Positions 6,507 through 57,381 of a DNA stretch of 64,000 bases are shown here, piece after piece; the first letter of the stretch is position 1; the number at the start of each line of letters is the position of its first letter. Source of the DNA: Xestospongia bergquistia (Eukaryota; Porifera; Demospongiae; Haplosclerida; Petrosiidae); the NCBI GenBank assembly GCA_963965975.1, contig OZ014416.1, forward strand, positions 7,130,001-7,194,000, in the 5' to 3' direction. The position numbers and the translations under genes are program-made. The notes under the pieces were generated by a model, which ran no database searches, had not been told where the DNA came from, and saw nothing but the letters and a program-made list of their open reading frames with translations.

Positions 6507-6545
6507 ATGACAGCTGAACAATTAGAAAGAGAGCAGGGGAGAATT
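6507..6545 (+). CDS. Exon 1: start exon, [13 protein letters not shown]
   Basis: Thirteen codons from ATG to a GTAAGT donor, phase 0. An in-frame TAA lies 16 codons upstream (6459-6461), so this is the first usable Met if the exon is 5'-terminal. It is followed in frame by the first ankyrin exon. An upstream exon ending at the AG at 6486-6487 was not supported. Confidence 0.55.
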
Positions 6546-9500
6546 GTAAGTATATTAGTAAATAACCCAGTATACTACATGTATTAGTATATAATGAATA
6601 CATTACATATTATTATTAAGCAGAGTACGTAGAAATATCCCCAGAAAATATGCCCGTCACTTTCAATCTATTACAGTATATTACATTCATTTAGCAGCTG
6701 TTAAAGTTGACTAATTGTGTCTTTATATACTAGAAAAAATGGGAACTATCTAAACTAGCATATTGTACCTTTTTTCCTATACTAACATGTACACAGCTTC
6801 TTCATAGCTCAAATTGTAAATGATAACTTAAGTTTTGACAGAGTTTAAAATAAAACAGAATAAAATAAAACAGAATAAAACAGTGGTTACGTTTAAAGAA
6901 AAGTTACTGTTGTATGTCATTAGCTAGTTTTGTTGTTTGTGATAAAATAGATTTTCAAGTATCTAAAACTTAGTTTTAGTTAATAAAAGCTTAGTAGTAT
7001 GCACTTTTCTTAAGTAGACAATTTAGTGTACATTTGAGGATGGTGTCAATGTTATTGATACATGGAGAAAGGGAGGGCTATTATTTTACAACATGGTAGC
7101 CATTCCTACACAATGACTTCTGCTAAATATATAAAGGTCATTTTAGTGTCTTCATATATCAAGAAATATTAGTGTTATTAATATTCACTTATTGTTCTAG
7201 TTATAGTTGTAGATACATTATACAAATAAACTCAGTTGAACTGTTTATTATTAGTTAGTATAGTCTTGTATTTGTAGTATAGTCTAATTGTCTCTGTTAG
7301 TTTATATGAGAAATAGTGTTATTACTATAATAAGGAATTTGTTTTCATAATTCTATTCAAAAAAATGTATTCTGTGTTGATTACCCTATTACACTCAGCA
7401 TTAACATTTATCCCTGATGATACATCTATAGCTAGTATATATAACAACAAAATACAAGTTACCTTAATATAAATTACATTAGATGTGTATTTGACCTGTC
7501 CTATAGTTTTATTAGTCTCATATAATACATGTAGATGTGTATGATTTACTAGTTTTAAATGTAATAAGTGTTTTATTATTATATAGAATGAGGAACTTTG
7601 GGAGTCTGCTGAAGCTGGACATTTAGAGAAAGTCAAACAAGCCCTTCAGAAAAGAGCAAGCCTCAAATGTCGTTTTAATGTAAGATCCTATTGCTTTATT
7701 TTTAATTTACTGTTATTATTTGACTTAGGTAATTAATTCAAAATATGTAAATTTAATAAGTTTTAATTCATTTTAGCTGCACCTAAATATTAATTAAAAA
7801 CTTCTACATTATTTTACATAATTTATTAATTCTTATTCTATTTGTTAAAGTTACTGAATTAGTATCCACAATTAATAACATACATGATCTTTACATGTAG
7901 TATTTTTAATAATGTCTTATAATTTAAGTGAATGTAATCCATTATATTGTGTGATAGTAATGTCTTAATTAATGATACATGTCAATGTAAAGTAATAGCC
8001 TGTATTGTGTATGCATAATATATGTAATTGGATTTTATTTCATTTATTAAAGTGTACTTTGTTTATTATATAGATTCATAATGTTAAAGGTCGTTATAAA
8101 ACAGGAACAAAACCTCATACTATAGCTTACATCAATGGTCATAACACAACAGTAGAGCTCTTGGAAAAAGTTGGAGCTACTCCTGATTATGTAAGTGTAT
8201 ACATGTATGTAGTTGAGGTCAATATTTAATGGTATTAATAATTAATAAAATTCAATAGTCTGTATACAATCATTAACACCCACTCAAACTGGTAGTAAAA
8301 TGGCTTAACAAGTTGATGTTAGTATTTCATATTTGCTGATTAAACTGGATTGAATGTATTATTAAACAGTTACTAAATTGTGTTACCCATCTTAACCCAT
8401 TGATAGCACTGCAAATATTCTGTCATAAAGGAGATCTTTATCTATGTATTGTGAATTATATAGTGTTTAAGTTTTGAAATCACTTCAGATATAAGTGTCC
8501 TTTTATAGGTAGGATATAGTTAAACAACAGTGCACATGGTCATGTAATTTATACATAGTTAATAATAGAGCTTCCGAAAATTTTGGCAAAGTGGCATTTA
8601 TGTACATGTGTATTCTTAGTATATACTGTTATATTTATTATGATGTAAATTATTTGTATTTACTTTCTTAGGATGAGATTATGTTGGCAGCTGCTGTAAG
8701 AGGACTAGTAGATATAGTGAAAGAAGCTTTAAAGAAGAATGCTAATGTGAATGCTAAAGAGCAAGGTTTTGTAAGTTTTACCTTATTATAATAAATGACT
8801 CTTTTCTAGTAAAGGATAACTTATTAATTTCACAACTATAACTTCGTTGCCACTGCATAATATAAGAATCCACAGTGCAATGTATAGTTTTACTGTATGT
8901 AATGCTATTAAACAAAGTGCAAGCACAATAAATGTAAAAATAAACAGTGACTTAACATCTTATTATGTCTGTTAAGATATCAAATGCCTACAATACAGCT
9001 GATCCATTTACGGTTAATATATCAAAACTACAGGTCATCCTTACAGTCATAGATTGTTATCATTAGGAAGCTTTTTACTATCCAGATACTTTACTAAACA
9101 GTCTTGTTGTATTGCTATAATATACAAGGATTCTTATATCAACAAAATCACTGGTTCATCTGTGTACACATATTTTAAACTGTTATTAACTCTATAGTAT
9201 GATGTCAACATTGCTGTGATATCTTCACTATATACTGTAACTGATTACCAGACTTAGTTATATTCTCTTACTGTAGTATTTTAATAATTATAGTAGTCAT
9301 ATTGTCATTTACATTCTTTGTTGTCTTATTATTAGAATCAGAATACAGCTTTACATCATGCTTCAATTAATGGTCATACTGAGGTAGTCCAATTTCTACT
9401 ACAGTCAAATGCAGATCCTAATATTTATAACAATGTCAGTGTGTCTTGTGTATAATTTATATTTCATTTATTATCTCTACTACATGTACATATATTATGT

Positions 9501-12500
9501 AGTACTACCTGTATAGTAGGACAGGATATAGATCAGAGCCAATGTAATGTAATTAATTTTCAATAAAGTACGGATAGGACAAAGTAGCTCTCATTTGTTG
9601 TTTGATATATAACAATTACTAATATAACTGGAAAATATAATAAACCTAATATGTAAAATAATATATAAAATATTAATATGTTCTTACATGAAATAAAAAT
9701 GATCAGTTCTAAGATTGTTTGGACCATGTGTGTATGTATATTTCTGTATATGTCCACTTTAACAAGTTTAATCTATTGTTATTATTAAACAATTTATTTC
9801 ATTTTATAGTGGGGACATAGTCCACTTCATTTAGCACACTGGTATGATCATGATAACATTGTTAAAATCTTATGTTCTTTTGGAGCAAGAGATATGGACC
9901 AAGTTAGAAATGTAAGTGATAAATATAATAATATATTTACTGTATATGATGATATGGACATAGTGATCTTACATGTTATGATATATTATAAACATGACCT
10001 AATTATATGTGGGTACATGTCACAGTTATAATATATTATTTATTTTAACAGGATTACTTACTTTTGACTTCTGCTGAAAATGGTGATATAGAAAATGTAA
10101 CTCAAGCACTTACATCAGGTGCTAATGTCAATGTTCATCATCCTAATAAGGTTAATACACTAATTGAATAATAACAAATTATTATTGTTTGTTAGTGTTT
10201 ACTTTTTAAAGTAATATATTTTATAACAAAGGAAATTATTTACAGGCACTTAAGAGATTTAGACCCACCCACTGTTGTAGACATTGTTTTCATTGTTTCA
10301 TCTAGAAAACAGTTTAATATCTCTTTTCTTACTTCCATAATACTTCTCTATCATTTTACTTATTGACATTGTCATACAATGTTAATGAACAAGGCATTTT
10401 TTATCCCAGACCTTTAATTGATATGACTATTTTGACATTTTAGCAAACCTCCTACTAAACTTGTAGTATTAATACAACTTTTTGCAAAATTCAAGTTTAT
10501 CAAAAGACTATTATTTTATTTATAAACTAGTAGATTTGTATTTATTGATATAATCTTGTCTTTGGTAAATGATATTCGTGGTCAGTGAATGTCAACCAAT
10601 AAATGATATGAACTTTTCGATTATAAAATTCTATGGACCTAACATTTGAAGTCTATTTAGTTTATAGACTAACAATATAGCAGGTAATCCTTAAAAGATT
10701 CCTGGTATTCACAGAGGTATCACTAGATTTGTAAAACTGGTACAAACTTGATGTTATCTTGTTATTACTAAGAGGTGTTATTAGAAAATGTAAAAGTAAA
10801 CATATTTAAAACTACTAAAAGATGTGTATAAGAAGTCTAGAGCAGTATGAAAGTAAATAAGATGAATGACAAAGTTAGAACCTAAGTATATAGAAATTTA
10901 ATTATAAATGATAAAGTTTAGTTTATCTTGAACATACTAAAGATAGAAATCAAAGTCACATTTGTTATTAAATCTAACATATGACTGTGAGAAAAACCCT
11001 ACATATCAACATATTAGTTTAACATTAATTGTCTATTGTGTTTTCATGTCATGTGTAATGATATATTGTATAGAAGTTTTATGGAATTACATAACCAAAT
11101 TTATATCTTATTTAAAAGACTTTACATAATAATAACCAAACAAGTCCTGTATATCATGTAGTTAATAATAATGGTAGCCATGATCCAAAAATAAATTATT
11201 ACTCATGTCTTTCAGAGCAGTTGTTACAATTGTTATTATAATACTTGTATTAATGTAATATTGTCAGTTGTTTCTTATCAATAAACTTAAATAAATTATA
11301 AATTACTAAATATATCGTAGTTATTATTTTTATCACTAGCATACTTTACATACTAGAGAGTTATGTTTTGAACTGTGTTTGTATACAATGTCAATGTCTA
11401 CTTTTATACATTATTTCATAGATATATTTGAATATTGAAAGTGGTGAATGAAATTTAATTGCACAAACAAATGAATTTAATGTACTCTTTCCATCAACAC
11501 AATTATTCAACCTGAGCATGTCTACTTGAAGACCAAGTGTCAAGTAATTTAACCTGAAGAGAGAAAATGTTTCTTTAAATGTAGCCTCTTCAACTATTAA
11601 TTATAAGACTTCTCTATTATTCTACGATAACTACTTGAAACTTCCAGCTTTCAATAATAGAGAAAACAACTACAATACCAATACATCCAAAAGCATTTTA
11701 TTATTGGTATATATTATGTAATTAATGCTATTATAATCAACTATAAACTCTTGTGTTCTTCCTCTAGAATCAGCGAACATCTCTACATTTAGCATCAAAA
11801 AGGGGTAACTGTGATATCGTACAGCTACTGTTAAACTCTAATGCAGATCCCAATATTTGTGACAGGGTCAGTGTATATTGTTTGTAGAGATTACTACTTG
11901 TTAGTAGATTTAAATCAGCATTTAATAGATATAGAATGTTATGGGTGTAGCTGTTATAAATTTCTATATTGACTTGTTGTTCAACTTTTTATTATTAAAG
12001 GATTAAGAAATATAGTCAGTGTCAGGTATTAGTAGACATTGTTTTAATTGTTTCGTCTAGAAAACAGTTTAATATCTCTTTTCTTATTTCCATAATACTT
12101 CTCTATCATTTTACTTTATTGACATTGTCATACAATGTTAATGAACAAGGCATTTTTTATCTCAGACCTTTAATAAATATGACTATTTTGACATTTTGAC
12201 AATATAGCAGGTAATCCTTAAAAGAATCCTGGTATTCACAGAAGTACCACTAGATTTGTAAAACTGGTACAAACTTGATGTTAAATGAACAGACTAAAGA
12301 TAGAGATCAAAGTCACATTTGTTATTAAATCAAACATATGACTGTGAGGAAAACCCTACATATCAACATATTAGTTTAACATTAATATATCTATTGTGTT
12401 TTCATGTCACGTGTAATGATATATTGTATAGAAATCAAAACAAGGAAGTTTGTAGGAATTATATAACCAAATTTATATCTTATTTTTAAAGACATTACAT

Positions 12501-15500
12501 AATAATAACCAAACAAGTCCTGTATATCATGTAGTTAATAATATGGTAGCCATGATAAAAAATAAATTATTAATCATGTCTTTCAGAGCAGATGTTACAA
12601 TTGTTATACTAATACTTGTATTAATGTAATATTGTCAGTTGTCAATAAACTTAAAATAAATTATAAATTAATAAATATATCTGTTTCAGTAGTTGTAGTT
12701 ATTATTTTTATCACTAGCATACTTTACATACTAGACAGTTATGTTTTGGACTGTGTTTGTATACAGCCCCTTCAACTATTAATTATAAGACTTCTCTATT
12801 ATTCTACAATAACTACTTGAAACTTCCAGCTTTCAATAATAGAAAAAACAAATGAATTTAATGTACTCTTTCCATCAACACAATTATTCAACCTGAGCAT
12901 GTCTACTTAAAGACCAAGTGTTAAGTAATTTAACCTTAAGAGAGAAAATGTTTCTTTAAATGTAGCCTCTTCAACTATTTATTATAAGACTTCTCTATTA
13001 TTCTACGATAACTACTTGAAACTTCCAGCTTTCAATAATAGAAAAAACAAATGAATTTAATGTACTCTTTCCATCAACACAATTATTCAACCTGAGCATG
13101 TCTACTTAAAGACCAAGTGTTAAGTAATTTAACCTGAAGAGAGAAAATGTTTCTTTAAATGTAGCCTCTTCAACTATTAATTATAAGACTTCTCTATTAT
13201 TCTACGATAACTACTTGAAACTTCCAGCTTTCAATAATAGAGAAAACAACTGCAATACCAATACATCCAAAAGCATCTTAAGATAATTTTTATAATGTTT
13301 AATTTTAATATGTGATCTATTTTATTATTGGTATGTATTCTATAATTAATGCTATTATAATCAGCTATAAACTCTTGTGTTCTTCCTCTAGAATCAGCGA
13401 ACATCTCTACATTTAGCATCAAAAAGGGGTTACTGTGATATCGTACAGCTACTGTTAAACTCCAATGCAGATCCCAATATTTGTAATGAGGTCAGTGTAC
13501 ATTGTTTGTAGAGACTACTAGATGTTAGTAGATTTAAATCAGTATTTAATAGATATAGAATGTTATGGGTGTGGCTGTTAGAAATTTCTACATCGACTTG
13601 TTGTTCAAATTTTTATTAGTAAAGGATTAAGAAAGATAGTCAGTGTCAGGTATTAGTAGGTATGGCCTGTTATAATAGTAATAAATATCATCTTGATTTT
13701 CACAGAGGTCCCACTAGTATGATGTGCATTTGTGTCTAACTGTTCTTATGAATAGATATTATATCATTAGCATTATACTATACTTTTATAATGTTACTAG
13801 ACTTGCACCAAAAAACTTAAAGCTTAAACCTTTGAGTGTAGGAAGAACAGCCAGTAGTGAGACATTCTACTCTATTATTCTATGATAACTTGAAATTTTC
13901 AGCTTTCAATTATAGAGAAAACAAATGAATTTAATGTACTCTTTCCATCAACACAATTATTCAACCTGAGCATGTCTACTTGAAGAGCCAAGTGTTAAGT
14001 AATTTAACCTGAAGAGAGAAAATGCTTCTTTAAATGTAGCCTCTTCAACAATTTATTATAAGACTTCTCTATTATTCTACGATAACTACTTGAAACTTCC
14101 AGCTTTCAATAATAGAGAAAACGTCTGCAATAACAATACATCCAAAAACATCTTAAGATAATTTTTATAATGTTTAATTTTAATATGTGGTCCATTTTAT
14201 TATTGGTATATATTCTATAATTAATGCTATTATAATCAACTATAAACTCTTGTGTACTTCCTCTAGGATCAACAAACTTCTCTACATTTAGCATCAAAAA
14301 GGGGTTACTGTGATATCGTACAGCTACTGTTAAACTCCAATGCAGATCCCAATATTTGTAATGAGGTCAGTGTATATTGTTTGTAGAGATTACTACATGT
14401 TAGTAGATTTAAATCAGTATTTAATAGATATAGAATGTTATGGGTGTGGTTGTTATAAATTTCTACATCAACTTGTTGTTCAAATTTTTGTTAGGAAAGG
14501 ATTAAGAAAGATAGTCAGTGTCAGGTATTAGTAGGTGTGGCCTATTATAATAGTAGTAGATATCATCTTGATATTCACAGAGGTCCCACTAGTATGATGT
14601 GCATTTGTGTCAAACTGTTCTTATGAATAGAAATTGTATCATCAGCATTATACTATACATTTATAGTGTTACTAGACTTGCACCAAAAAATTTAAAGCTG
14701 AAACCCTTGAGTTTAGGAAGAACAGCCAGTAGTGAGCCATACTTCTCTATTATTCTATGATAACAACTTGAAACTTCCAGCTTTCAATAATAGAGAAAAC
14801 AAATGAATTTAATGTACTCTTTCCATCAACACAATTATTCAACCTGAGCATGTCTACTTAAAGACCAAGTGTTAAGTAATTTAACCTGAAGAGAGAAAAT
14901 GTTTCTTTAAATGTAGCCTCTTCAACTATTTATTATAAGACTTCTCTATTATTCTACGATAACTACTTGAAACTTCCAGCTTTCAATAATAGAGAAAACA
15001 ACTGCAATAACAATACATCCAAAAGCATCTTAAGATAATTTTTATGTTTAATTTTAATATGTGATCCATTTTATTATTGGAATATATTCTATAATTAATT
15101 CTATTATAATCAACAATAAACTCGTGTACTTCCTCTAGAATCAGCGAACATCTCTACATTTAGCATCAAAAAGGGGTTACTGTGATATCGTACAGCTACT
15201 GTTAAACTCTAATGCAGATCCCAATATTTGTGACAGGGTCAGTGTATATTGTTTGTAGAGATTACTACTTGTTAGTAGATTTAAATCAGTATTTAATAGA
15301 TATAGAATGTTATGGGTGTGGCTGTTATAAATTTCTATATTGACTTGTTGTTCAAATTTTTATTAGTAAAGGATTAAGAAAGAGAGTCAGTGTCAGATAT
15401 TAGTAGGTGTGGCCTGTTATAATAGTAGTAGATATCATATTGATATTCACAGAGGTCCAACTAGTATGATGTGCATTTGTGTCAAACTGTTCTTCTGAAT

Positions 15501-18500
15501 AGAAGTTGTATCATCAGCATTATACTATACTTTTATAACGTTACTAGACTTGCACCAAAAACCTTAAGGCTTAAACCCTTGAGTGTAGGATGAACAGCCA
15601 GTAGTGAGACATTCTTCTCTATTATTCTACGATAACTACTTGAAACTTCCAGCTTTCAATAATAGAGAAAACAACTGCAATACCAATACATCCAAAAGCA
15701 TCTTAAGACAATTTTTATAATGTTTAATTTTAATATGTGATCCATTTTATTATTGGTATATATTCTATAATTAATGCTATTATAATCAACAATAAACTCT
15801 TGTGTTCTTCCTCTAGAATCAGCGAACATCTCTACATTTAGCATCAAAAAGGGGTTACTGTGATATCGTACAGCTACTGTTAAACTCTAATGCAGATCCC
15901 AATATTTGTGATGAGGTCAGTGTATATTGTTTGTAGAGACTACTAGATGTTAGTAGATTTAAATCAGTATTTAATAGATATAGAATGTTATGGGTGTGGC
16001 TGTTAGAAATTTGTACATTGACTTGTTGTTCAAATTTTTGTTAGTAAAGGATTAAGAAAGATAGTCAGTGTCAGGTATTAGTTGGTGTGGCCTGTTATAG
16101 TAGTATTAGATATCATCTTGATATTCACAGAGGTCCCACTAGTATGATGTGCATTTGTGTCAAACTGTTCTTATGAATAGATATTATATCATTAGCATTA
16201 TACTATACTTTTATAATGTTACTAGACTTGTATCAAAAAACTTAAAGCTTAAACCCTTGAGTGTAGGAAGAACAGCCAGTAGTGAGCCATACTTCTCTAT
16301 TATTCTATGATAACAACTTGAAATTTCCAGCTTACAATAATAGAGAAAACTAATGAATTTAATTTACTCTTTCCATCAACATAATTATTCAACCTGAGCA
16401 GTTAAATATATAATTTGACTTCTATGATATAAACTTACTATATCTAGATACCTCAATAAACAATCCTGTTGTATTTCTGTAATAGACGACTAATTCTGAT
16501 ATTGACATATATTTTTATACTGTTACTAACTCTATTGTATGAAGTTCAACATTGTTGTGATATCTTCACTATATACTGTAACTGATTACTGGACTTAGTT
16601 ATATTCTCTTACTGTAGTATTTTAATAATTATAGTAGTCATATTGTCATTTACATTCTTTGTTGTCTTATTATTAGAATCAGAATACAGCTTTACATCAT
16701 GCTTCAATTAATGGTCATACTGAGACAGTCCAATTTCTACTACAGTCAAATGCAGATCTTAATATTTATAACAAGGTCAGTGTGTATTGTGTATAATTTA
16801 TATTTCATTTATTATCTCTACTACATGTACATATATGTAGTACTACCTGTCTAGTACAACAGGATATAGATCAAAGCCAATGTAATGCAATTAATTTTCA
16901 AAGTATGGATAGGACAAAGTAGCTCTCATTTGTTGTTTGATGTATAACAATTACTAATATAACTGGAAAAATATAATAAATCTAATATGTAAAATAATAT
17001 AGAAAACTTTAATATGTTCTTACTTGAAATAAACATGATTACTTCTAAGATTATTTTGGACCATGTATGTATATATATTACTATATATGTCCACTTTAAC
17101 AATTTTTATCTATTGTTATTATTATTAAACAATTTATTTCATTTTATAGTGGGGACATAGTCCACTTCATATAGCATACTGGTATGATCATGATAACATT
17201 GTTAAGCTCTTATGTTCTTTTGGAGCAAGAGATATGGACCAAGTTAGAAATGTAAGTGATAAATATAATAATATATTTACTGTATATAATGACATGGACA
17301 TAGTGATCTTACATGTTATGATATATTATAAACATGACCTAATTATATGTGGGTACATGTCACAGTTATAATAATTATATTATTTATTTTAACAGGATGA
17401 CTTACTTTTGACTTCAGCTGAAAATGGTGATATAGAAAATGTAACTCAAGCACTTACATCAGGTGCTAATGTCAATGTTCATCATCCTAATAAGGTTAAT
17501 ACACTAATTAAATAATAACAAATTATTATTGTTTGTTAGTGTTTACTTTTTAAAGTAATATATTTTATAACAAAGGAAATTATTTACAGGCACTTAAGAG
17601 ATTTAGTCCCACCCACTGTTGTAGACATTGTTTTCATTGTTTCATCTAGAAAACAGTTTAATATCTTTTCTTATTTCCATAATACTTCTCTATCATTTTA
17701 CTTTATTGACATTGTCATACAATGTTAATGAACAAGGAATTTTTTATCCCAGACCTTTAATTGATATGACTATTTTGACATTTTGACAAACTTCCTACTA
17801 ACCTTGTACTATTAATACAACTTTTTGCCAAATTCAAGTTTATCAAAAGACTATTATATATTTATAAACTAGTAGATTTGTATTTAGTGTCTTTGGTAAA
17901 TAATATTCATAGTCAGTGAATGTCAGCCAATAAATGATATGAACATTTCTATTATTAAATTCTATGGACCTAACATTTGAAGTCTATTTAGTTTATAGAC
18001 TAACAATATAGCAGGTAATCCTTAAAAGAATCCTGGTATTCACAGAAGTACCACTAGATTTGTAAAACTGGTACAAACTTGATGTTAAATGAACAGACTA
18101 AAAATAGAGATCAAAGTCACATTTGTTATTAAATCTAACATATGACTGTGTGAGGAAAACCCTACATATCAACATATTAGTTTAACATTAATTATCTATT
18201 GTGTTTTCATGTCATGTGAAATGATATATTGTGTAGAAATCAAAAAAGGAAGTTTGTAGGAATTACATAACAAAATTTATATCTTATTCTTAAAGACATT
18301 ACATAATAATAACCAAACAAGTCCTGTATATCATGTAGTTAATAATAATGGTAGCCATGATCCAAAAATAAATTATTACTCATGTCTTTCAGAGCAGATG
18401 TTACAATTGTTATACTAATACTTGTATTAATGTAATATTGTCAGTAATTTCTTATCAATAAACTTAAATAAATTATAAATTATGTTTTGGACTGTGTTTG

Positions 18501-39500: not shown

Positions 39501-42500
39501 AAAAGTCTTTTTGCTAGTATAATACTACAAGGAGCTCTTTCAGATGTAGGTTTTAAAATTGGTATACCAGTTGCTACACAAGTGTTAGAGAGTACAGACC
39601 TCCTGTTTAAATTAATTGATCTGTGCTTTCTATAGTACAGTCTCTTACCACCTTAAAGGAAATTAATTATTAATAATTATTTAGTACTAAATATGTACAC
39701 GTATTTTGTATCTTACATAATTATGACAGGAGATTGCCAAAGCAAGTAATAACAACTTAATAATAATAGTAATAGCTTAAAAAATCTGGTGGGACATGAG
39801 CAATGTAAGAAATGATTAATAAAACCTTATGTTCAACTTGTACATGCACTTATGTCATAAATAAAGTACTTTGAGTAACAGAACTAAGAATTTCATTCAA
39901 ACTGTTGGACATCATTTCTGTTTTAATGCACAATGAATATAATTAATAAGCAGTTTATAGGCTTCCTACCACCTTAATAACGCTAAAACAACCACATGTA
40001 GACAATATCACAATGTAAAAATTACTAAAGTCATCAGCAAAAATAAACAGGTCAGGTCAGCATTGAATTATATAATATAGTAGACCATAGACACTAAGAT
40101 TGGTTACTAATCTAAAAGAGTCGATTATCTGTCATTACAAGCAAATTAACTGACTACTTGACCTTTAATATAGTCAGTGTTAATGTTAAGGTCCAAAACC
40201 CTTGAAGGCAAAAACAAGAAATATGGGCCCTATTAGACACAAAGATTGTATGAGTATTTCATCACTTGTTACATATCTTTGGTGATTTGAGTCCTTTTTG
40301 TTATTTAGTTGTAAAAATATTCATACTACTACAGAAAACTAACATAATATTTGCTTTGTCTCATCAAAATTAATGTTTTGTCTATACCAAAAAATGATGC
40401 TGTGTTTAACTGAGTTTTGACAAGAATACCTTCTTTGTTGTCCATTTCAATTGCTACTGTAAATTCAGAAATGTTTGTTAGTAAATTTTGTACACAATAG
40501 CATATACAAAATTTAACTTATAAATATCCTTTGTAGCTATTAGTAACAATATTTATGGACATTATGACATCATGAGTTTTACCAAGGCTAAATGGTGTGG
40601 TCTTTATATATGAGCGTGGTGTTTATAGCATGTGTATTTTACTACTTTATTTGTTTAATGTTGAATTGAGTCTTTTGATGTCCTAGCTTGTTTAGTGACT
40701 CAATATAAATGCCATAATATGATGTAATGGGATAAGGTATAGCTAATAAAGGGAGTTTGTTAGTGATATGTAATTAGCTACTGTTTATAGTATATATTAA
40801 GTATGCTGTATATGTGGTGTGGTCATAATCATTGTTCAAATTTGAGATGGTAATACAATAACTATAGTTAAACACATTATGCAGCAAGTAAGGATCATGT
40901 TGATGCTCTAGAGTTATTATTTGAAGTGGGACAAGTTGATATAAATGCTACAGACAGAGTAAGACATATTGTAGTTACTTATGAAATATTTCCTTTGAAG
41001 TATGGTCAAAATTGATATCAACTTTTCTCATGCCCAGACTGCCTATTACTTCAAAAATTATGAGAACATATTTTGACAAAAAATATTCAAATAATCCAAA
41101 ATTTTTCACTGTTGAGAAAGTACTAAACCCAAATTAATGACAAAAGATCTACTAAAGGAACAGTATAGCTGTTCACAGTACAATTGGTAAATGAGAAAAG
41201 AGATAATTTTTTCAAATTCCTCATTCGTGTCCTTTTAATATTATTGATATTACTTTGAGAATATGAAGTGTATTTGCTTTCATGATCTTAGATTTCTTTA
41301 TTGTTTTTTTTCCTGTAACATGTCAAACATAGTCCCACATTACTCATCTAAAATATTTATACATACCTTTACACTATCAACACTTCTTCGACTAATAGCA
41401 ACCAAAAAAGAGTCAGGCAACAAATTATTTGCACAGGGAATAATTTGTAAAGCCTTCCATTACAATCTTAGTGCTAGCATAGAGTCTCTGAAATGTCTTA
41501 CCTCATGTAATATGTCCCATAGGCCATGATTGATACCAGCAACCTGTAGTCCATTTATTGATGTTGCTACATATATTAGGTATATAGGCAGAGCTGTAAG
41601 TATGCTTCGACATATCATTGCAATAAATTGTTTTCATTTCACCAGAAAAGTGGAATTGCCTTCAAGAATGAGGTCAACCATTTGCGCATAGCAGTAGATC
41701 ATACATTAAATGATTAAAAGTGAATTCTTTATATATTTCACAAATAACAAACTACATCACTGCTATTTGGACATGTTACATACATGTGGCAAATCAAAAA
41801 TATTACATTTCTTATGGTCTTTTAAACATAACACTTAAATCAAAAAATAGGCGTATAGGAAGTAAGCACAGACTAATATCTGAACGTATTGGTTTCAAAT
41901 TCTAGGATTTTGTCCTTGTTTCTATGTATATAACTACACTGATATATCTATCACTATATTGCATATCACTGGGTGTGGCTTATAAAATTCATATATACTA
42001 AGTTGACATAGAATACATTAGATACACCCACTATCTGTTCTGTTATTAAAGAAAAATAATATAACAATAATCAATGAAGACAGGAAACTGTTTGTTAGTT
42101 ATTATACAAAATAATTTTATGATTACATTTAAAAAGGTCATTTTATTTTATATTAGTAGTGACAAACATATAACTTCCATAATATATTACAATGAAACAT
42201 CCATAGAACATTTTCTCAGTAATTATAATACTTAGAAACCCTATACCTTTTTAATGTAGTCCTAAAGTCAAGTTTGAATATTTATATCATGTTAATAGAA
42301 TTATTATAAGTGTGATAAGATTGTGAGATAAATGATCTAGTTTATTATTAATGACAATGTTTATAATAATTGAGAGTCATTTAATATCTTACTTTCTGTC
42401 TCTCTGTCATTGGTCAGTTTTGACATAACAATACAATAGTTATGATTATCTGTATTGATGACTGTTATATTGACTATATAGTTTATTGTATGATAGTTCC

Positions 42501-45500
42501 TGTGGTTTTTATAATTAAATAACTTTTCCTCTTTTGTTATCTAGCGTGGACAAACACCAGCACATTATGCAGCAAAGAACGGTGGTGTTGATGTTCTAAA
42601 GTTATTAATTACAGTGGGGCAAGCTGACATAAATGCTACAGATGAAGTAAGACATATTATAGTTACTTATGAATTATTCCTTTGAAGTATGACATTTAAT
42701 ATTATCTTCAATACTGATATCAACCTCTCTCATATCCGGACTGTCCAATATTTTGATAACATGTTTTTGGTAAAAGATGTTCCAAGAACAATAGTCCAAT
42801 ATCAATTTTTGATTTTTGCTTACAATATGTCAAACATAGCCTATTGTCATTACATCAAACAATTATAATATTTATTAATGGTCATGAATAATTAATACAC
42901 AAAATTTAGCATGTTCTATGTAACCTTTGTTGAGTACTTCCTGGTATAACTTATACTATGATGATGACATCACTATTGTCATACAGGTTAACAACGACAA
43001 TGTGAGTGTATGGTTTAGTTTTTTGGGCTTAGAAGGTTTTAGGGTTTAGGGTGCTTTTATTGTAACTTGTAACTTATACAATGATGATGATGTCATCATA
43101 TTCAAGTTCCACGAAGAACCACTTCCTTTATTAGCCCTCCCACATATATACACATGCACATAAAAACTTGTCTATACTTTTGTGATTTACCTGTCTGTTT
43201 GTGGCTTCAATAGTTTTATAGACTATTTTATAACAGACTCTGCATTTTTTTCTTATAATTAGGCAATAGCATTCTTAGGAACTTCATATATTCTAAATAG
43301 ATTACCAGCTTCCAGTGGAAGTACATTAATATGTGGACAAACCATTTTTATATAAAACCATAGTTCACATGATCTGTTGGACAAATAGTGAATTTGGTCA
43401 TATCTGGTGTGAAAGATTCCCTGACTGGTAAAGTTAACATTTTGAGAGAATTGGAGGAACTCTGTCCTTACCAAAAAATCATCTTTCTTTTATACATTCA
43501 CAACATGTGACATAGAAGGTTCTAGCAGATAACAATGTTTGTATATACAGAGATTATTACAATATTATGTTTACTGAAATAAATAAACAAATTTCTAGTC
43601 CATCACATCTGAAAAATATCCTACTGTGTAAAACCTGTAAAAATTAAGTAATGTGGACTGACATTTCCATAGTATTATTCCTTGTCTCCTTTATATGTAC
43701 TATTAGTATAAATGATAAATTATATTACATGAATTAATGATTCAATTCTACTTGACTATGTCCTATATCAGTGACTGTCACTGATAGATCTGTTTACATG
43801 AGATTAAATTTATATATACATAAACTAAATATAAAGTATAGAAATTCCTTTCATCACTAAACACCTGGCTATGAGGCTAATAATTAATATTGGTATTACC
43901 TATCACTATAAGTAAGATTTAAGGAGTAGTGGCTGTGCTTATTAGAAATTTCTATGTTGATTTGTCCTTTAAATTATATTTTAGTAAAGGATTAATAAGG
44001 ATAGTTATTGACAGCTATCAGTAGGTGTGGCCTGTTATAATAGTACATATTTCTTAGTTTACTAAGTTGTCAATTGATAGATATTACTGAACAACATGGG
44101 CATTGTAATAGTTGTTGTCATAGCAACTGTTACTATGATAAAATACTATTGATAATTTAAAGTATATCAATTATAAATAGATAAGTTATGTTTATTTGTA
44201 TGTTTAAGTGTAAAGACACAATTATTAATATTATTAATGGTTATCACTAACAATATTCACAATGTGGGATGTACCTCTTATTAACACTCATAAATCACTC
44301 TATGGGCAAGGGTTACATTGCTTTGTCAGTCTGTCTGTCATTGTGTTTGTCTGTTCCAAAACACAAGCAATATGGTAGAGTTTATCACTCTCAAAAAATT
44401 ACTACTGTGTGAATAATATGAAATTAACTACTTTTTCAATATGGGAATTTTCTGAAAATGCTTCATTCTCAAGTTGCAGCAATTTAACTTACCTTGTTCT
44501 GCTATGATCTTGGTGTCCATGCTTATTGATGAATAATTATAGTTATCACATGATCAATAACTTGCACATGTAAGTGACTTGGTCAAGGAGTTTTCTTGAG
44601 TGTCCTATCCACTTGCATATTTCGGTTTAGTGAAGTGTTGCAAAATCTAAGTCTATAAACATACAGTTTAGAAAAAGAACAAAGCCTCATTGAAGTGCTT
44701 GACTTTTAATGTAACACTCATTAGTACTCGTCATAGCCTGTAGTAGATGAGGGTGTCATATGTTTTGCACTATCAACATTTCTATGACCAGTAATAGCTA
44801 TGACATTCTGCTCTTCAATAGCTTAAAAAATCTGGTGGGACATGAGCAATGCAAGAAATGATTAATAAAACCTTATGTTCAACTTCTACATGCACTTGTG
44901 TCATAAATAAAGTACTTTGAGTAACAGAACTGAGAATTGCATTCAAACTGTTGGACATCATTTCTGTTTTAAACTAAAATATTACAATGAATGCACAATG
45001 AATTTAATGTGGTATTCAAAATTAATATCAACTTGTCTCATGCCCAGACTGCCTATTACTTCAAATATTTTGAGAACATATTTTGACAAAAAATATTCAA
45101 AAGCAATAATTCAAAATCTTTCACTGTTGAGAAAGTACTAAACCCAAATTAATAACAAAAGATCTACTAAAGGAACAGTATTGCTGTTCACAGTACAATT
45201 GGTAAATGAGAAAAGGGAAAAGAGTCATTTAATATCTTACTTTCTGTCTCTCTGTTATTGGTCAGTTTTGACACAACAATACAATAGTTATGATTATCTG
45301 TATTGATGACTGTTATATTGACTATATAGTTTATTGTATGATAGTTCCTGTGGTTTTTATAATTAAATAACTTTTCCTCTTTTGTTATCTAGCGTGGACA
45401 AACACCAGCACATTATGCAGCAAAGAACGGTGGTGTTGATGTTCTAAAGTTATTAATTACAGTGGGGCAAGCTGACATAAATGCTACAGATGAAGTAAGA

Positions 45501-48500
45501 CATATTATAGTTACTTATGAATTATTCCTTTGAAGTATGACATTTAATATTATCTTCAATACTGATATCAACCTCTCTCATATCCGGACTGTCCAATATT
45601 TTGATAACATGTTTTTGGTAAAAAATGTTCCAAGAACAATAGTCCAAAATCAATTTTTGATTTTTGCTTACAATATGTCAAACATAGCCTATTGTCATTA
45701 CATCAAACAATTATAATATTTATTAATGGTCAATTAATTAATGGTCATGAATAATTAAATATTTATTAATGGTCAATTAATTAATGGTCATGAAAAATTA
45801 ATACACAAACTTTAGAATGTTCTATGTGACCTTTGTTGAGTACTTCTTGGTATAGCTTGTACTATGATGATGACATCACTATGTGTCATACAGGTTAATA
45901 ATTACAGTGTGAATGTATGGTTTAGTATTTTAGGTTTAGAAGGTATTCAAAAGTGATATCAACTTGTCTCATGCCTATTACTTCAAATATTTTGAGAACA
46001 TGTTTTGACAAAAAATATTCAAATAATCCAAAATCTTTCACTGTTGAGAAAGTACTAAACCCAAATTAATGACAAAAGATCTACTAAAGGAACAGTATAG
46101 CTGTTCACAGTACAATTGGTAAATGAGAAAAGAGATAATTTTTTCAAATTCCTCATTCATGTCTTTTTAATATTATTGATATTACTTTGAGGATATGAAG
46201 TGTATTTGCTTTCATGATCTTAAATTTCTTTATTATTTTTTTTTCTGTAACATGTCAAACATAGTCCCACATTACTATCTAAAATATTTATATATACCTT
46301 TACACCATCAACACTTCTTTGACCAGTAACAGCTGAAAAAGAGTCAGGTAACAAATTATTTGCACAGGGAATAATTTGTAAAGCCTTCCATTACAATGTT
46401 AGTGCTAGCATGGAATCTCTGAACTATCTTACCTCGTGTATTATGTCCCATAGGCCTTGATTGATACCAGCAACCTGTAGTCCATCTATTGATGTTGCTA
46501 CATATATTAGGTATGTAGGCAGAGCTGTAAGTATGCTTTGACACATCACTGCAATAAATTAATAATTTTGACTGACTACTAATTAATAAATTTAACTGAC
46601 TACTTGACCTTTAATATAATAATTTGTTAATGTTAAGGTATAGAGTCTCTGAACTGTCTTACCTCATGTATTATGGGCCATAGGCTTTGATTTATACCAG
46701 CAACCTGTAGTCGATCTATTGATGTTGCTACATATATTAGGTATATAGGCAGAGCTGTAAGTATGCTTCGACACATCATGGCAATAAATTAATAAGGTTA
46801 TAACAACCACATGTAGACAAAATCACAATGTAAAAATTATTTAGTAACTAAAGTCATCAGCAAAAATAAACAGGTCAGGTCAGCATTGCATTATATAATA
46901 TAGCAGACCATAGACACTAAGCTTGGTTACTAATCTAAAAGAGTCGATTATGTGTCAATATACAAGCAAATTAACTGACTACTTGACCTTTAATATAGTC
47001 AGTGTTAATGTTAAGGTATAGAGTCTCTGAACTGTCTTACCTCATGTATTATGGGCCATAGGCTTTGATTTATACCAGCAACCTGTAGTCGATCTATTGA
47101 TGTTGCTACATATATTAGGTATATAGGCAGAGCTGTAAGTATGCTTCGACACATCATGGCAATAAATTAATAAGGTTATAACAACCACATGTAGACAAAA
47201 TCACAATGTAAAAATTATTTAGTAACTAAAGTCATCAGCAAAAATAAACAGGTCAGGTCAGCATTGCATTATATAATATAGCAGACCATAAACACTAAGC
47301 TTGGTTACTAATCTAAAAGAGTCGATTATCTGTCATTACAAGCAAATTAACTGACTACTTGACCTTTAATATAGTCAGTGTTAAGGTAAAAATATCTGAA
47401 TTTTTTTTCAGCTTTTTTTGATGCAATCATGTGAAGATGTCCTATATCAGTGACTGTCACTGATAGATCTGTTTACATGAGATTAAATTTATACATAAAC
47501 TAAATATAAAGTATGGAAATTCCTTTCATCACTAAACACCTGGCTATGTGGCTAATAATTAACATTGGTGTTACCTATCACTATAAGTAATATTTAAGTA
47601 GTAGTGGCTGTGCTTATTAGAAATTTCTATGTTGATTTGTCCTTTAAATTTTGTTTCAGTAAAGGATTAATAAGGATAGTTATTGACAGCTATCAGTAGG
47701 TGTGGCCTGTTATAATAGTACATATTTCTTAGTTTACTAAGTTGTCAATTGATAGATATTACTGAACAACATCGACATTGTAATAGTTGTTGTCATAGCA
47801 ACTGTTACTATGATAAAATAATATTGATAATTTAAAGTATATCAATTATAAATAGATAAGTTATGTTTATTTGTATGTTTAAGTGTAAAGACACAATTAT
47901 TAATATTATTAATGGTTATCACTAACAATATTCACAATGTGAGATGTACCTCTTATTAACACTCATAACTCACTCAATGGGCAAGTATTACGTTGCTTTG
48001 TCAGTCTGTCTGTCATTGTGTTTGTCTGTTCTAAATCACAAGCAATATGGTAGAGTTTATCACTCTCAAAAAATTACTACTGTGTAAATAATATGAAATT
48101 AACAACTTTTTCAATGTGGGAATTTTCTAAAAATGCTTCATTCTCAAGTTGTAGCAATTTAACTTACCTTGTTCTGCTATGATCTTGGTGTCCATGCTTA
48201 TTTGACAAATAATTATAGTTATCACATGATCAATAACTTGCACATGTAAGTGACTTGGTCAAGGAGTTTTCTCGAGTGACCTATCCACTTGCATAGTTTG
48301 GTTTAGTGAAGAGTATAAGCGTTGCAAAATCTAAGTCCAAACATAGACTTTTAATGTCACACTCATTAGTGCTCGTCATAGTCTGTAGTAGATGAGGGTG
48401 TCATACCTTTTGCACTATCAACATTTCTATGACCAGTAATAGCCATGACATTCTGCTCTTCAATAGCTTAAAAAATCTGGTGGGACCAGACATGGGGCAA

Positions 48501-51500
48501 GCATTTAATGAAGTGCTTGAAGCACAAGTTAAAGCATTCATAAAAGGGCTTAAGCACAAGTACAAGTATTTTGCTTCCAAAAAATAAATGCTTGAAGCAC
48601 AAATTCAAGCACTTAAAAATGCTTGAAGCACAAGCACAAGCACTTTTGACCAAACATTTCCTTTAAATAAACAATTTTATCTATATCAATTTTTAAAATA
48701 TTTATTGTTAGATCTTATAAACATTAGTTTATAGAATGTAGCATCTGTCAATCGGCATTTCTCTGGCCTAAACACAAGATGATAGCGGAAGATTATTAAT
48801 GGATGTGCTAAGTACACAAAGTACTTGCAGCATTTGGGTTTAAAAGTGCTTATAAAGTGCTTTAAAGCACTAATACTATAAAGTGCTTAAGCACAAGCAC
48901 AAGCATAAATGCTTACACATAATAAATGCTTGAAAGCACCTCCAAGCACTCCAAAAAATGTACTTAAAGTGCTTTCAAGCACAAGCACTCAAGTGCTTGC
49001 CCCATGTCTGGGTGGGACATGAGCAATGCAAGAAATGATTAATAAAACCTTATGTTCAACTTGTACATGCAGTTATGTCATAAATATAGTACTTTGAGTA
49101 ACAGAACTGAGAATTGCATTCAAACTGTTGCACATCATTTTTGTTTTAACCTAAAATATTACAATACACAATGAATATAATTAATAAGTAGTTTATAGGC
49201 TTCCTACCACCTTAATAACGTTATAACAACCACATGTAGACAATATCACAATGTAAAAATTATTTAGTAACTAAAGTCATCAGCAAAAATAAACAGGTCA
49301 GGTCAGCATTGTGTTATATAATATAGCAGACCATAGACACTAAGCTTGGTTACTAATCTAAAAGAGTGAATTATGTGTCATTACAAGCAAATTAACTGAC
49401 TACTTGAGCTTTAATATAGTCAGTGTTAATGTTAAGGTCCAAAACCCTTGAAGGCAAAAACAAGAAATATGGGTCCTATTAGACACAAAGATTGTATGAG
49501 TATTTCATCACTTGTTACATATCTTTGGTGATTTGAGTCCTTTTTGTTATTTAGTTGTAAAAATATTCATACTACTACAGAAAACTAACATAATATTTGC
49601 TTTGTCTCATCAAAATTAATGTTTTGTCTACAAAACAAAATGATGCTGTGTTTATCTGAGTTTTGACAAGAATATCTTCTTTGTTGTCCATTTCAATTGC
49701 TACTGTAAATTCAGAAATGTTTGTTATTAAATTTTGTACACAATAGCATATACAAAATTTAACTTATAAATATCCTTTGTAGTTATATAGTAACAATATT
49801 TATGGACATTATGACATCATGAGTTTTACCAAGGCTAAATGGTGTGGTCTTTATATCTGAACGTGGTGTTTATAGCATGCGTATTTTACTACTTTATTTG
49901 TTTAATGTTGAATTGAGTCTTTTGATGTCCTAGCTTGTTTAGTGACTCAATACAAATGCCATAATGTGTTGTAATGGAATGAGGTATAGCTAATAAAGGG
50001 AGTTTGTTAGTGATATGTAATTAGCTACTGTTTATAGTTTATATTAAGTGTGCTGTATATGTGGTGTGGTCATAATCATTGTTCAAATTTGAGATGGTAA
50101 TACAATAACTATAGTTAAACATGTTATGCAGCAAGTAAGGGTCATGTTGATCCTCTAGAGTTATTATTTGAAGTGGGACAAGTTGATATAAATGTTACAG
50201 ACAGAGTAAGACATACTGTAGTTACTTATGAAATAGTGCCTTTGAAGTATGACATTTTAATGTGGTATTCAAAATTGATATCAACTTGTCTCATCCCCAG
50301 ACTGCCTATTACTTCAAATATTTTGAGAACATATTTTGACAAAAAAATATTCAAAAGCAATAATTCAAAATCTTACACTGTTGAGAAAGTACTAAACCCA
50401 AATTAATGACAAAAGCTCTACTAAAGGAACAGTATAGCTCTTCACAATACAATTGGTAAATTAGAAAAGGGAAAAGAGTCATTTAATATCTTACTTTCTG
50501 TCTCTCTGTCATTGATCAGTTTTGACATAACAATAGAATAGTTATGATTATCTATATTGATGACTGTTATATTGACTATATAGTTTATTGAATGATAGTT
50601 CCTATGCTTTTATAATTAAATAACTTTTCCTCTTTTGTTTTCTAGTATGAACAAACACCAGCACATTATGCAGCAAAGAAGGGTCATGTTGACGTTCTAA
50701 AGTTATTAATTACAGTGGGACAAGCTGACATAAATGCTACAGATAAAGTAACTCATATTATAGTTACTTATGAATTTTTCCTTTGAAGTATGACATTTAA
50801 TATTGTTTTCAATATTGATGTCAACCTCTTCATATCCGGACTGTCCAATATTTTGATAACATGTTTTTGGTAAAAGATGTTCCAAGAATAATAGTCCAAA
50901 ATGAAATTTTGATTTTTGCCTACAATATGTCAAACATAGCCTATTGTCATTATATCAAACAATTACAATATTTATTAATGGTCAATTAATTAATAGTCAT
51001 GAATAATTAATACACAAATTTAGCATGTTCTATGTGACCTTTGTTGGTTGGTATAATTTGTACTATGATGATGACATCACTATGTGTCATACAGGTTAAT
51101 AATGACAGTGCGAATGTATGGTTTAGTTATTTGGGTTTAGAAGGTTTTAGGGTTCAGGGTGCTTCTTGGTACAACTTGTAACTTATACTATGATGATGAC
51201 ATCAATATGTGTCATCATATTCAAATAATACCAAGAACCACCCCCTTTATTAGCCCTCCCCTCTCACATATATACACATGTACATAAAAACTTCTCTTAT
51301 GATTTATCTGTCTGTTTGTGTCACATGATCTAATGAAAACATAGTGACATGAGGCAGCATAAATTAGTAAAAGACTGTCTGTACTTCTACATGAAAGATC
51401 ATCACTACATCCACCACATACCATAACAGCCATTTTGCATTTTCACTCTCTTAACACATGGTCAGGTCAATGTATATTCTACCTACATCCTCATTCCTAC

Positions 51501-56011: not shown

Positions 56012-57043
56012 AAAATTAATATTTGTATAACTGAGTCTTTAATGATGTTATAATTAAGTAATCTACTGTATATGACAAATTTGTTTACTTTTTATGTACT
56101 TCAGACTAACTCCACCTACTTAGTATCCTGTCTTCTACATGCTTCAAACCAAAAGTGTTATCAAAGCCAATAACTTTAGGACTGCTTACCACATGATAGC
56201 ATGTGTTAACTCACAAATAACTAATAGCATGATGCCTTAACTACCTGAATGAGAAAGAGTGTGCAAATCCCATTCTATAATAATAGAAAAATAGTATTAG
56301 ATGAATCATTCAATTTTTTTAATAGTTCAAATAAACAATCATATACATGTAAATATCCACATAAAATGTACATACTTGTATTAAGGTAACTAGTGTACTT
56401 ACAATGTATTTATTGATATACATAACATCACTTATGTTGACTAAACACTCACATTATTTCCCACCTACAAAATTAGATTGATGAATAAGATAAATCAATC
56501 ACTTACTTTTTACACTTCATAATAATATATGTGGCTTCAAATAATATCATTAATTAGATAATGGTAACTAGTTTTTCAGTTAACTCATTTCTTTTAAAGT
56601 AACTCATTGACTAAATTTAAAGATTGTTATCCCAATAATTCATTGCTTATCAATACTTGACTTTATAATGACTACTATTGAGACTATAATTTGTTTATAG
56701 TTTCTTTGGTCTTAGACTCTAATCTATTATTAATTGATATTGTACATTATATGAGCTGTGTAAATAGTCAAGTCTGATCATGTTGCTAACATTATTGTAA
56801 CTATATACATTATGTCTTACCTTCTTAATTTGGTATATTAATAGTTGCAGCAAAAATGATGAAAGAAAGTGAAACTAAAAATTGTATTTTGAATTATTGT
56901 CAACTTTGAACATTCTGACTTGTTACATCATCTATACATGTGTTAATATCAATAACTTGATTATACTTATTATATTGTTTAACAAAGAATAAATCATTTT
57001 ATAATATAAATACTAAATTGTATATTATTCCATTCCATATTAG
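56012..57043. other. Between CARD-like and death-domain exons
   Basis: AT-rich, no further exon supported on either strand. Confidence 0.45.
56330..56335 (+). terminator. Possible poly(A) signal AATAAA
   Basis: AATAAA 319 nt after the CARD-like exon stop. In AT-rich DNA this hexamer is common by chance. Confidence 0.25.
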
Positions 57044-57381
57044 GTAATATGGTTGAAGGAGGAGTACATGTATTCACTTTACCAGATGATCTCTTGGATC
57101 AACAACCTACAATTCAAGAAGTGACTAGATATGCTAGAACTGCAAAGCATAATCAGTTAGGTGTAACACTACAACTAGACAGTGTCCAACTAGCTGGATG
57201 TCATGATTATACTAGTATGTATCAGCTATGGATTATGGAGAAAGCTGAAAATGCAACAAGGAGGAATTTATTAGTTGCTTTAAGAGATATTGGACAGAAT
57301 AATGTGGCAAGAAAGTATGAAGAATATTTAGAAACAATAGTAAGTTACATTGTCCGTACATTAAAGTATACATGTACATAG
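57044..57381 (+). CDS. Death-domain exon (alternative 3' exon or neighbouring gene)
   Basis: After CCATATTAG in phase 1: NMVEGGVHVFTLPDDLLDQQ, then a death domain with LGVTLQLDSVQLAG, YQLWIMEKAENATRRNLLVA and LRDIGQNNVARKYEEYLETI. The W-hxxxxxxATRRNLLxAL and IGQNNVARKYEE signatures are classical for the last helices of the fold. A GTAAGT donor after 57339 would leave phase 0 for a further exon not found; reading through gives 14 more codons to TAG at 57379-57381. No promoter-proximal ATG exon was found upstream; an internal ATG at 57049 exists. The acceptor phase matches that of the CARD-like exon, so alternative splicing from exon 42 is possible. A separate gene is the other reading. Confidence 0.6.

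Follow-up and report, generated by a model that had tools for sequence, protein, structure and literature searches.

Results

A gene at positions 6507-56008 of the window (the whole 64,000-nucleotide stretch of sponge DNA analysed here) probably encodes a germline-diversified receptor, in which a long array of one-repeat ankyrin exons precedes a Roc-type GTPase exon with a COR-like region. All coordinates are window positions, and the gene and its ankyrin exons all lie on the + strand (Table 1). The compact upstream neighbour, a paralogue, aligns with exons 1-4, with one E and one C exon, and with both the Roc exon and the final one. Because this paralogue has both of the same ends, the comparison supports reading 6507-56008 as a single gene with a bloated middle, and thereby the claim of the earlier note that there is one gene with a single Roc-type module. 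When the five damaged exon copies are left out, 36 exons through the end of the Roc exon join into an open frame of 1844 aa. An Rfam scan of the window at gathering scores returned no matches.

A profile scan of the window, with profiles built from its own exons, gave 38 matches in 7587-50747, of which 33 are open in frame and flanked by an acceptor and a donor in phase; the other five are not. Exon 3 was added by homology as a further intact ankyrin exon. The earlier note had described about 35 phase-0 ankyrin exons here, in five families (A, B, C, D and E) of interchangeable, symmetric exons. All five families are present on the + strand at this place, and their interchangeable, symmetric character is supported, though some of the copies are damaged. 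The intact copies, with one repeat each, are symmetric in phase 0/0, as called by an exon finder which accepted in-phase AG/GT sites only and took the best-looking GT, so that phase 0 was imposed by the search. The phase-0 reading is nevertheless backed by GTNAG donors at the called site in 108/113 intact exons from the four regions examined, by the exon lengths (93-105 bp for the intact A-E exons of the window; 93-117 bp for all intact ankyrin exons there) and by the compact paralogue with the same layout.

Across the four regions, 113 of 118 profile matches were intact and all five damaged ones were in the window; by the same criteria, two other array loci gave 31/31 and 45/45. Inclusion of the 100-bp D exon at 31882-31981 would terminate the protein, and a full-inclusion transcript would therefore be truncated; either this exon is skipped, or the allele is dead, or the assembly is in error.

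Table 1. Features of the gene and its ankyrin exon array (window positions).
Feature	Position	Strand	Remarks
Exon 1	6507..6545	+	ATG, 13 codons, phase 0, donor GTAAGT; aligns with compact upstream paralogue
Exon 2, B-type ankyrin, N-cap-like by eye	7587..7679	+	In-phase AG and GTAAGA; paralogue homologue; one of the B-profile seeds
Exon 3, A-like ankyrin (by eye)	8074..8190	+	Paralogue homologue, in-phase sites; no match to A profile
Exon 4, B-type ankyrin	8672..8770	+	Profile, paralogue homologue; seed of B profile
End of first module	9336..9911	+	E 9336-9434, A 9810-9911; profile
Module 1	10052..17251	+	B 10052-10150; D 11768-11866, 13392-13490, 14267-14365, 15139-15237, 15817-15915; E 16677-16775; A 17150-17251; profile; joined, matches Pfam ankyrin families
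Module 2	17396..21799	+	B 17396-17494; D 18931-19029, 19609-19710; E 21225-21323; A 21698-21799; profile
Module 3	21944..29782	+	B 21944-22042; D 25338-25436, 26212-26310, 27573-27674; E 29191-29289; A 29684-29782; profile
Module 4	29923..35454	+	B 29923-30027; damaged B 30113-30187; frameshifted D 31882-31981; D 33245-33346; E 34863-34961; A 35356-35454; profile
Module 5	35595..38514	+	B 35595-35699; damaged B 35785-35859; D 37736-37834, 38413-38514; no E or A match afterwards; profile
C region	40875..50747	+	C 42545-42646, 45393-45494 (same protein), 50646-50747; damaged C 40875-40958, 50125-50205; profile
Damaged B copies	30113-30187 and 35785-35859	+	Start and acceptor absent
Damaged C copies	40875-40958 and 50125-50205	+	Start absent; acceptor of 50125 weak and mid-exon, counted as damaged
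Frameshifted D exon	31882-31981	+	100 bp instead of 99; acceptor and donor present, frame broken
Large exon: last ankyrin repeat, Roc GTPase-like domain, COR-like region	51866..53938	+	Donor GTAAGT after NPL; open frame continues to 54028
Last exon	55718..56008	+	97 codons, then stop

The exons of the array are arranged in modules of the repeated order B-D(n)-E-A. The window shows orders such as BDDDDDEA, two other loci have BDDDDDA, and the A-B introns measure 131-144 bp in 16/16 pairs. One joined module gave a Pfam Ank score of 205.7 bits over seven stretches and matched ordinary ankyrins and DARPins equally in the PDB, as expected of an ankyrin family member with tandem 33-residue repeats. 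A recent head-to-tail duplication of about 5.67 kb was found at 25864..37378 (+), where 25864-31706 and 31532-37378 are 99.57% identical. Long internal pairs (from a list of pairs of at least 90% identity and more than 700 bp) reach 99.6% identity and this, together with the independent Pfam score and the intact sister arrays, argues that the array is more than chance. Several modules stand before a single Roc-type exon, a layout in line with the many binding surfaces on one switch that had been proposed, the surfaces themselves being putative.

The large exon matched Pfam Roc at 18.1 bits (E 0.0032), which is below the cut-off of 27; 13 of 15 aligned family members matched at E <=0.01, the best at 0.00023. 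In the open paralogues, including the window, the GTPase motifs are retained (AGKS in 26/27, DxxGH in 27/27 and GSHxD in 27/27), and an NPL- or SPL-type donor follows the Roc exon in 28/30 loci, the window among them. For the whole exon, dN/dS was 0.28-0.49 against all 26 open paralogues; for its parts it was 0.28-0.42 against 19 of the 26, with seven left out of the mean. These values indicate that the Roc exon is conserved and under constraint. An AlphaFold2 model of its product, made without an alignment, was not usable (pLDDT 34).

A COR domain after Roc is weakly suggested by a profile-profile comparison with five COR-A-positive proteins of the same genome, which was collinear over G4 and COR-A (E 0.0012, probability 18.9%). 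Against seven open frames, the best blastp match had an E of 0.13 and the best paralogue HMM match an E of 0.0095 at 3.0 bits; no PDB match was found. Of the Roc-COR pair named in the earlier note, the Roc part is a candidate with GTPase motifs but a score under the Pfam cut-off, and the COR part is tentative.

The last exon has counterparts in two neighbouring paralogues, at 67% and 76% identity, and its product was helical in a weak predicted model (pLDDT 64). It had been called CARD-like, a name that was dropped after searches of Pfam, PDB sequences, PDB profiles and Foldseek (with the same model) gave no CARD match; given the low confidence of the model, the exon might still be a divergent CARD member. 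An open frame read as Death-like in the neighbour (L043:7295-7702) was also rejected, having no Pfam match.

The Roc exon belongs to a paralogue family with at least 62 full or partial matches in the genome, not all open, including that of the window (at least 61 further); the total is a minimum, since scoring covered 62 of 253 candidates. When each A-type exon is attributed to the closest Roc match downstream, the matches have from 0 to 7 of them, with none for 24 of the 62, and the three array genes examined carry 4, 5 and 7. Genome-wide Pfam searches gave no array-family locus among the Roc matches listed (150/452 candidates scored) and no array-family member among 146 COR-A matches (150/171 candidates scored).

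An analysis of surface residues among the D copies, as proposed in the earlier note, was carried out with 65 D exons from the three array genes, five preset contact positions (the paratope) and a simple counting method. Divergence of the flanking introns (62- and 64-bp flanks) was the yardstick; longer flanks were replaced, their distances seeming to mix non-homologous sequence. The ratio of paratope dN to intron divergence was 2.97 (bootstrap 2.09-4.03), 2.42 (1.46-5.70) and 1.29 (1.05-1.66) in the three loci, intervals that are too narrow because exon copies share history, and random sets of five positions reached the paratope value with p of 0.005, 0.0025 and 0.02. The remaining positions gave 0.74, 0.43 and 0.33, with bootstrap upper bounds of 1.05 and 1.10 in two of the loci, so that constraint on the rest of the D exon is clear in locus R52 only. 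In R52, however, 2/30 register shifts reached the paratope value, and the paratope ratio was 0.69, not above 1, when measured against exon dS at the same codons. Diversifying selection at the D-exon contact positions is thus supported by these statistics, with the R52 exon-dS ratio speaking against it. The likeness to recognition genes that had been claimed is borne out to the same extent: contact positions outpace introns and the Roc exon appears constrained, but the R52 ratio does not fit.

Discussion

In the preferred reading, the array arose by local duplication of one-repeat phase-0 exons and of entire B-D(n)-E-A modules, with unequal exchange probably adding to the multiplication, and the 5' end and the Roc exon stayed unchanged on either side of it. 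Each module resembles a capped ankyrin stack, and a single GTPase switch in the protein would then be served by several consecutive binding stacks; the reading of B and A as caps is by resemblance and not from a structure. Selection would favour change at contact residues and protect the switch. Binding of a ligand to the stacks could alter the state of Roc, and the C-terminal helical exon could relay the signal, possibly in immunity or self-recognition.

It is possible, though not what we would expect, that diversity comes from splicing, with the array acting as a library of cassette or mutually exclusive exons and each transcript using a different subset. All intact exons are symmetric (by the in-phase search), the frame would be preserved if the frameshifted D exon were skipped, and brown-algal ROCO genes use single-repeat exons alternatively, according to Teng et al. 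2024 (PMC11378527). However, the near-uniform, consensus-like splice sites with their GTNAG donors suit constitutive use. As the sites are uniform and consensus-like in most copies, constitutive inclusion fits at least as well as exon choice, and inclusion of most exons is taken as the default.

Constitutive use would also suit an ordinary large ankyrin gene, that is, a long solenoid grown by neutral tandem duplication whose surface varies from relaxed constraint. One-repeat exons were likewise found in 5/8 other ankyrin loci inspected in the same genome (L002-L005, L007), the neighbouring paralogue manages with about six repeats, and the ratio of 0.69 in R52 points the same way. This explanation seems doubtful to us, since in each of three loci the contact positions changed more than the introns, the lower bounds lying above 1, and also outdid random position sets. 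Ankyrin surface positions being variable in general, relaxed constraint may account for part of the variation. Decay, with the gene copy dead and its array made up of defunct duplicates, could explain why all five damaged exons are in the window and why one is frameshifted between present splice sites. It is improbable given the 33/38 intact matches, the open 1844-aa chain, the open Roc exon with its low dN/dS and two sister arrays free of damage. A germline-diversified receptor gene is the reading that we prefer. Counting against it are the truncation that full inclusion would bring in this allele, the exon-dS ratio and register shifts in R52, the lack of array-family loci in the genome-wide Roc and COR-A results, and the equal match of a joined module to ordinary ankyrins and DARPins.

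Ankyrin repeats immediately before a Roc domain are also found in DAPK1-type animal Roco proteins, which carry a kinase, ankyrin repeats, Roc-COR and a Death domain. These differ in being few genes, compared with a large sponge family, and no kinase was noticed in the sponge gene; we know of no exon array in them. In arthropod Dscam, a single gene whose interchangeable exons likewise lie in tandem arrays, alternative splicing is established; for the sponge array it would be a possibility. Brown-algal LRR-ROCO genes, reportedly the subject of an earlier study by Zambounis et al. in 2012, are the closest known case. According to Teng et al. 2024, who also name Dscam, the algal genes carry each repeat on its own exon, shuffle these exons, are under diversifying selection and are alternatively spliced (PMC11378527). 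They share with the sponge gene the repeats before a Roc-type GTPase, single-repeat symmetric exons, tandem exon duplication, an expanded family and candidacy as immune receptors, with diversifying selection on four contact positions there (PMC11378527). Their repeats, however, are LRRs of 72 bp in phase 2 against ankyrin repeats of 99 bp in phase 0, alternative splicing is documented in them and hypothetical in the sponge, and they are mostly dispersed, whereas many sponge loci are clustered on one contig (PMC11378527). Exon modules are a further difference, being a feature of the sponge array.

Fungal NLRs with repeats of high internal conservation (ankyrin, TPR or WD) resemble the array in their near-identical repeats, and show repeat-number polymorphism and positive diversifying selection; their switch is an NLR (STAND) rather than Roc, and the excerpted text describes no single-repeat exons (PMC4986451). 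In the sponge Amphimedon, TRADD-N proteins that also carry Death-like domains and, at the C terminus, ankyrin repeats have undergone large lineage-specific expansions. A role in immunity is proposed for them, in which the ankyrin repeats possibly serve recognition; these have TRADD-N rather than Roc, and no exon array is described in the part of the source available (PMC8195603). DARPins, as excerpted, share an N-cap, n internal repeats, a C-cap and variable residues at set surface positions, but are engineered (PMC8683736).

In the titles and abstract openings searched in the open-licence literature, no animal ankyrin-Roco exon array was described. Brown algae have 9-47 ROCO genes, said to exceed any organism reported (PMC11378527), compared with the 62 full or partial Roc-exon matches, not all open, of this single sponge family alone. 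If the design is the same it would be convergent, because the lineages are distant: two multicellular lineages would have arrived separately at a Roco switch with a library of single-repeat exons shaped by diversifying selection. The animal version has ankyrin stacks that seemingly come with caps, and it belongs to a large gene family that is clustered. That an animal Roco-type family became, independently of brown algae, a modular recognition system for immunity or self-recognition, combining capped stacks, germline module exchange with positive selection and RNA-level exon choice, is as a whole rather unlikely in our judgement. If the receptor reading is right, the locus would offer a test of recognition in a simple animal, with the 100-bp exon as a built-in splicing reporter.

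Gene structure

In the 146.46 Mb assembly (21 contigs), in which the window is C6:7130001-7194000, the compact paralogue next to the window gene (Table) was aligned with it by blastn at exon 1, exons 2-4, one E and one C exon, and the Roc and last exons, which reveals both gene ends and an array-less form of the gene. This supports the earlier note, which had joined the ankyrin exons, the Roc region and the end into a single gene.

Table. Features of the window gene and exon order at the array loci (capitals, intact exons; exon 3 left out of the window string)
Feature	Location	Strand	Exon order or remark
Exon 1 with ATG	6507-6545	+	
Three leader ankyrin exons	starts 7587, 8074, 8672	+	
Large exon (Roc exon)	51866-53938	+	last ankyrin repeat and Roc-like domain
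Last exon	55718-56008	+	downstream of Roc exon
Window array			BBEABDDDDDEABDDEABDDDEABbdDEABbDDcCCcC
Compact neighbour (L043)	C6:7110001-7130000		BBEC; directly upstream of window gene
R64	C6:6429501-6455500		BEABDDABDDDDDABDDDDDDDDABDDDDDD; part of gene
R52	C6:5269001-5308000		DABDDDABDDDDDABDDDABDDDDABDDDDDABDDDDDDABDDDD; part of gene

On the + strand of the window, the leader exons are followed by one E and one A exon and then by repeated modules, each consisting of a B exon, one to five intact D exons, an E and an A exon. The family profile search of the window gave no E or A match in the last module, and three intact C exons lie between the modules and the Roc exon. With profiles of the five families made from the window's own exons, 38 matches were found, of which 33 were intact and 5 damaged, and exon 3 (8074) was detected by homology only. 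When the damaged copies were left out, 36 exons joined through the end of the Roc exon gave 1844 stop-free amino acids.

Between a B and a D exon there is an open frame (23849-24595, - strand) with a GIY-YIG-like stretch, suggestive of a Penelope-like element, and no Pfam match. Another, 3' of the last exon (57010-57378, + strand), gave a Pfam Death-domain match of 22.5 bits against a cut-off of 22.6 and is possibly a separate gene. A reverse-transcriptase fragment lies at 60011-60556 (- strand; RVT_1 25.7 bits, under the cut-off of 29.6). In the compact paralogue, the open frame after the Roc exon (L043:7295-7702) appeared Death-like by eye, had no Pfam match and, from the alignment, is apparently absent from the window gene.

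Module number and age of the copies

All 16 A-B introns were 131-144 bp long, therefore A and B move as a pair; D-D introns ranged from 486 to 1925 bp. Judged by eye from sequence, B could be like an ankyrin N-cap and A like a C-cap. Across the genome there were 80 matches to A-type exons, 76 of which could be assigned to the nearest downstream Roc match (within 120 kb). Among 62 Roc matches, 24 had no A exon, 20 had one, nine two and five three, and the remaining four had 5, 5, 6 and 7. The window gene has five; the five of R64 include one 103 kb off, leaving four in its near array.

The window contains a head-to-tail duplication of a roughly 5.67 kb block, with 99.57% identity of the copies, and the remaining internal pairs share 90 to 98%, only pairs of at least 90% identity and longer than 700 bp being listed. 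The dS of D exons was 0.05-0.13 within a gene and 0.29 between genes, a pattern that local expansion or exchange would produce. The D consensus of the window is the most divergent, whereas the R64 and R52 consensuses agree at all but 1 of 31 positions.

Other one-repeat-per-exon ankyrin arrays (L002-L005 and L007; C6:8.39-8.64 Mb and C13:1.98 Mb), with a spacing of about 257 bp in L004, were counted apart from this Roco family. C14 differs from this one-repeat layout: its ankyrin repeats (e.g. 1969598-1973260) are contained in single open frames, which reach 3081 aa.

Tests of selection on the D exons

The analysis covered 65 D exons of three genes (13, 21 and 31 copies). Five contact positions were fixed beforehand after the DARPin design: exon positions 1, 3, 11, 12 and 31, corresponding to DARPin positions 3, 5, 13, 14 and 33. 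The sixth DARPin position, at the exon end, was omitted because exon ends differ in length. In DARPins, randomised surface positions form the paratope (PMC8683736).

The ratio of dN at the contact positions to flanking-intron divergence was 2.97, 2.42 and 1.29 in the three genes, with bootstrap intervals of 2.09-4.03, 1.46-5.70 and 1.05-1.66 that are drawn from copies which are not independent. At the other 26 positions the ratio was 0.74, 0.43 and 0.33 (upper bounds 1.05, 1.10 and 0.51), and D exon dS relative to the introns was 0.83, 0.97 and 0.77. The paratope values were reached by random five-position sets at p = 0.005, 0.0025 and 0.02, and by register shifts in 0, 0 and 2 of 30. Counting against selection, division by exon dS of the same codons gave 2.47 for R64 but 0.69 for R52, the window value being undefined because dS was zero; position 31 is invariant among the window D exons; and ankyrin surfaces vary in general.

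The Roc-like switch

The Roc exon product had at least 62 full or partial genome matches at E up to 1e-5, mostly on C6 (62 of 253 candidates scored). Of the best 30, the window's own among them, 27 had open frames of 690 aa or more, the three shorter ones being dropped, and a donor (GTAAGT or GTAAGC) followed NPL or SPL at the expected place in 28; in L010 and L035 the donor pattern was matched elsewhere. Across its four parts, the fourth taking in about 9 codons beyond the donor, the Roc exon had dN/dS of 0.28-0.42 against 19 of 26 open paralogues. Four near-alike Roco locus copies with equal A-to-Roc spacing lie on C13 near 3.41, 3.63, 3.82 and 4.03 Mb, with a partial reverse copy nearby, and may represent a recent large duplication or assembly redundancy.

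The window protein scored 18.1 bits with Pfam Roc, under the cut-off of 27; 13 of 15 aligned family members matched at E up to 0.01. Among the 27 open paralogues, including the window, DxxGH and GSHxD were present in all and AGKS in 26. In the part of the genome-wide candidates scored, no locus of this family was among the Pfam Roc matches listed, and none was among 146 COR-A matches; the genome would thus appear to contain many further Roco-type loci. Profile comparison of the family with five proteins from this genome that match COR-A was collinear through COR-A (E 0.0012, probability 18.9%); little was added by blastp, with a best E of 0.13, or by a paralogue HMM, whose best match had E 0.0095 at 3.0 bits. 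The switch is described here as Roc-like and probably carries a divergent COR. Two neighbouring paralogues have conserved the last exon, whose product is helical in a weak structure model; it showed no sign of the CARD proposed earlier.

Proposed working and known relatives

From the anatomy and statistics, the modules would most likely act as tandem binding stacks, which changes in contact residues and in module number could retune over generations. By analogy with its family, the Roc domain would most likely convert binding into signal. Exons may also be chosen at the RNA level, on which the 100-bp D exon at 31882 would bear.

In the LRR-ROCO genes of brown algae, each LRR is encoded by a single 72-bp phase-2 exon; these genes show exon shuffling and documented alternative splicing, and positive selection acts at four positions of the concave face (PMC11378527). 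In fungal NLRs, the ankyrin, TPR or WD repeats are nearly identical and positively selected (PMC4986451). The window gene resembles both in anatomy and selection; among the papers listed in the literature searches, none showed an animal ankyrin-Roco case.
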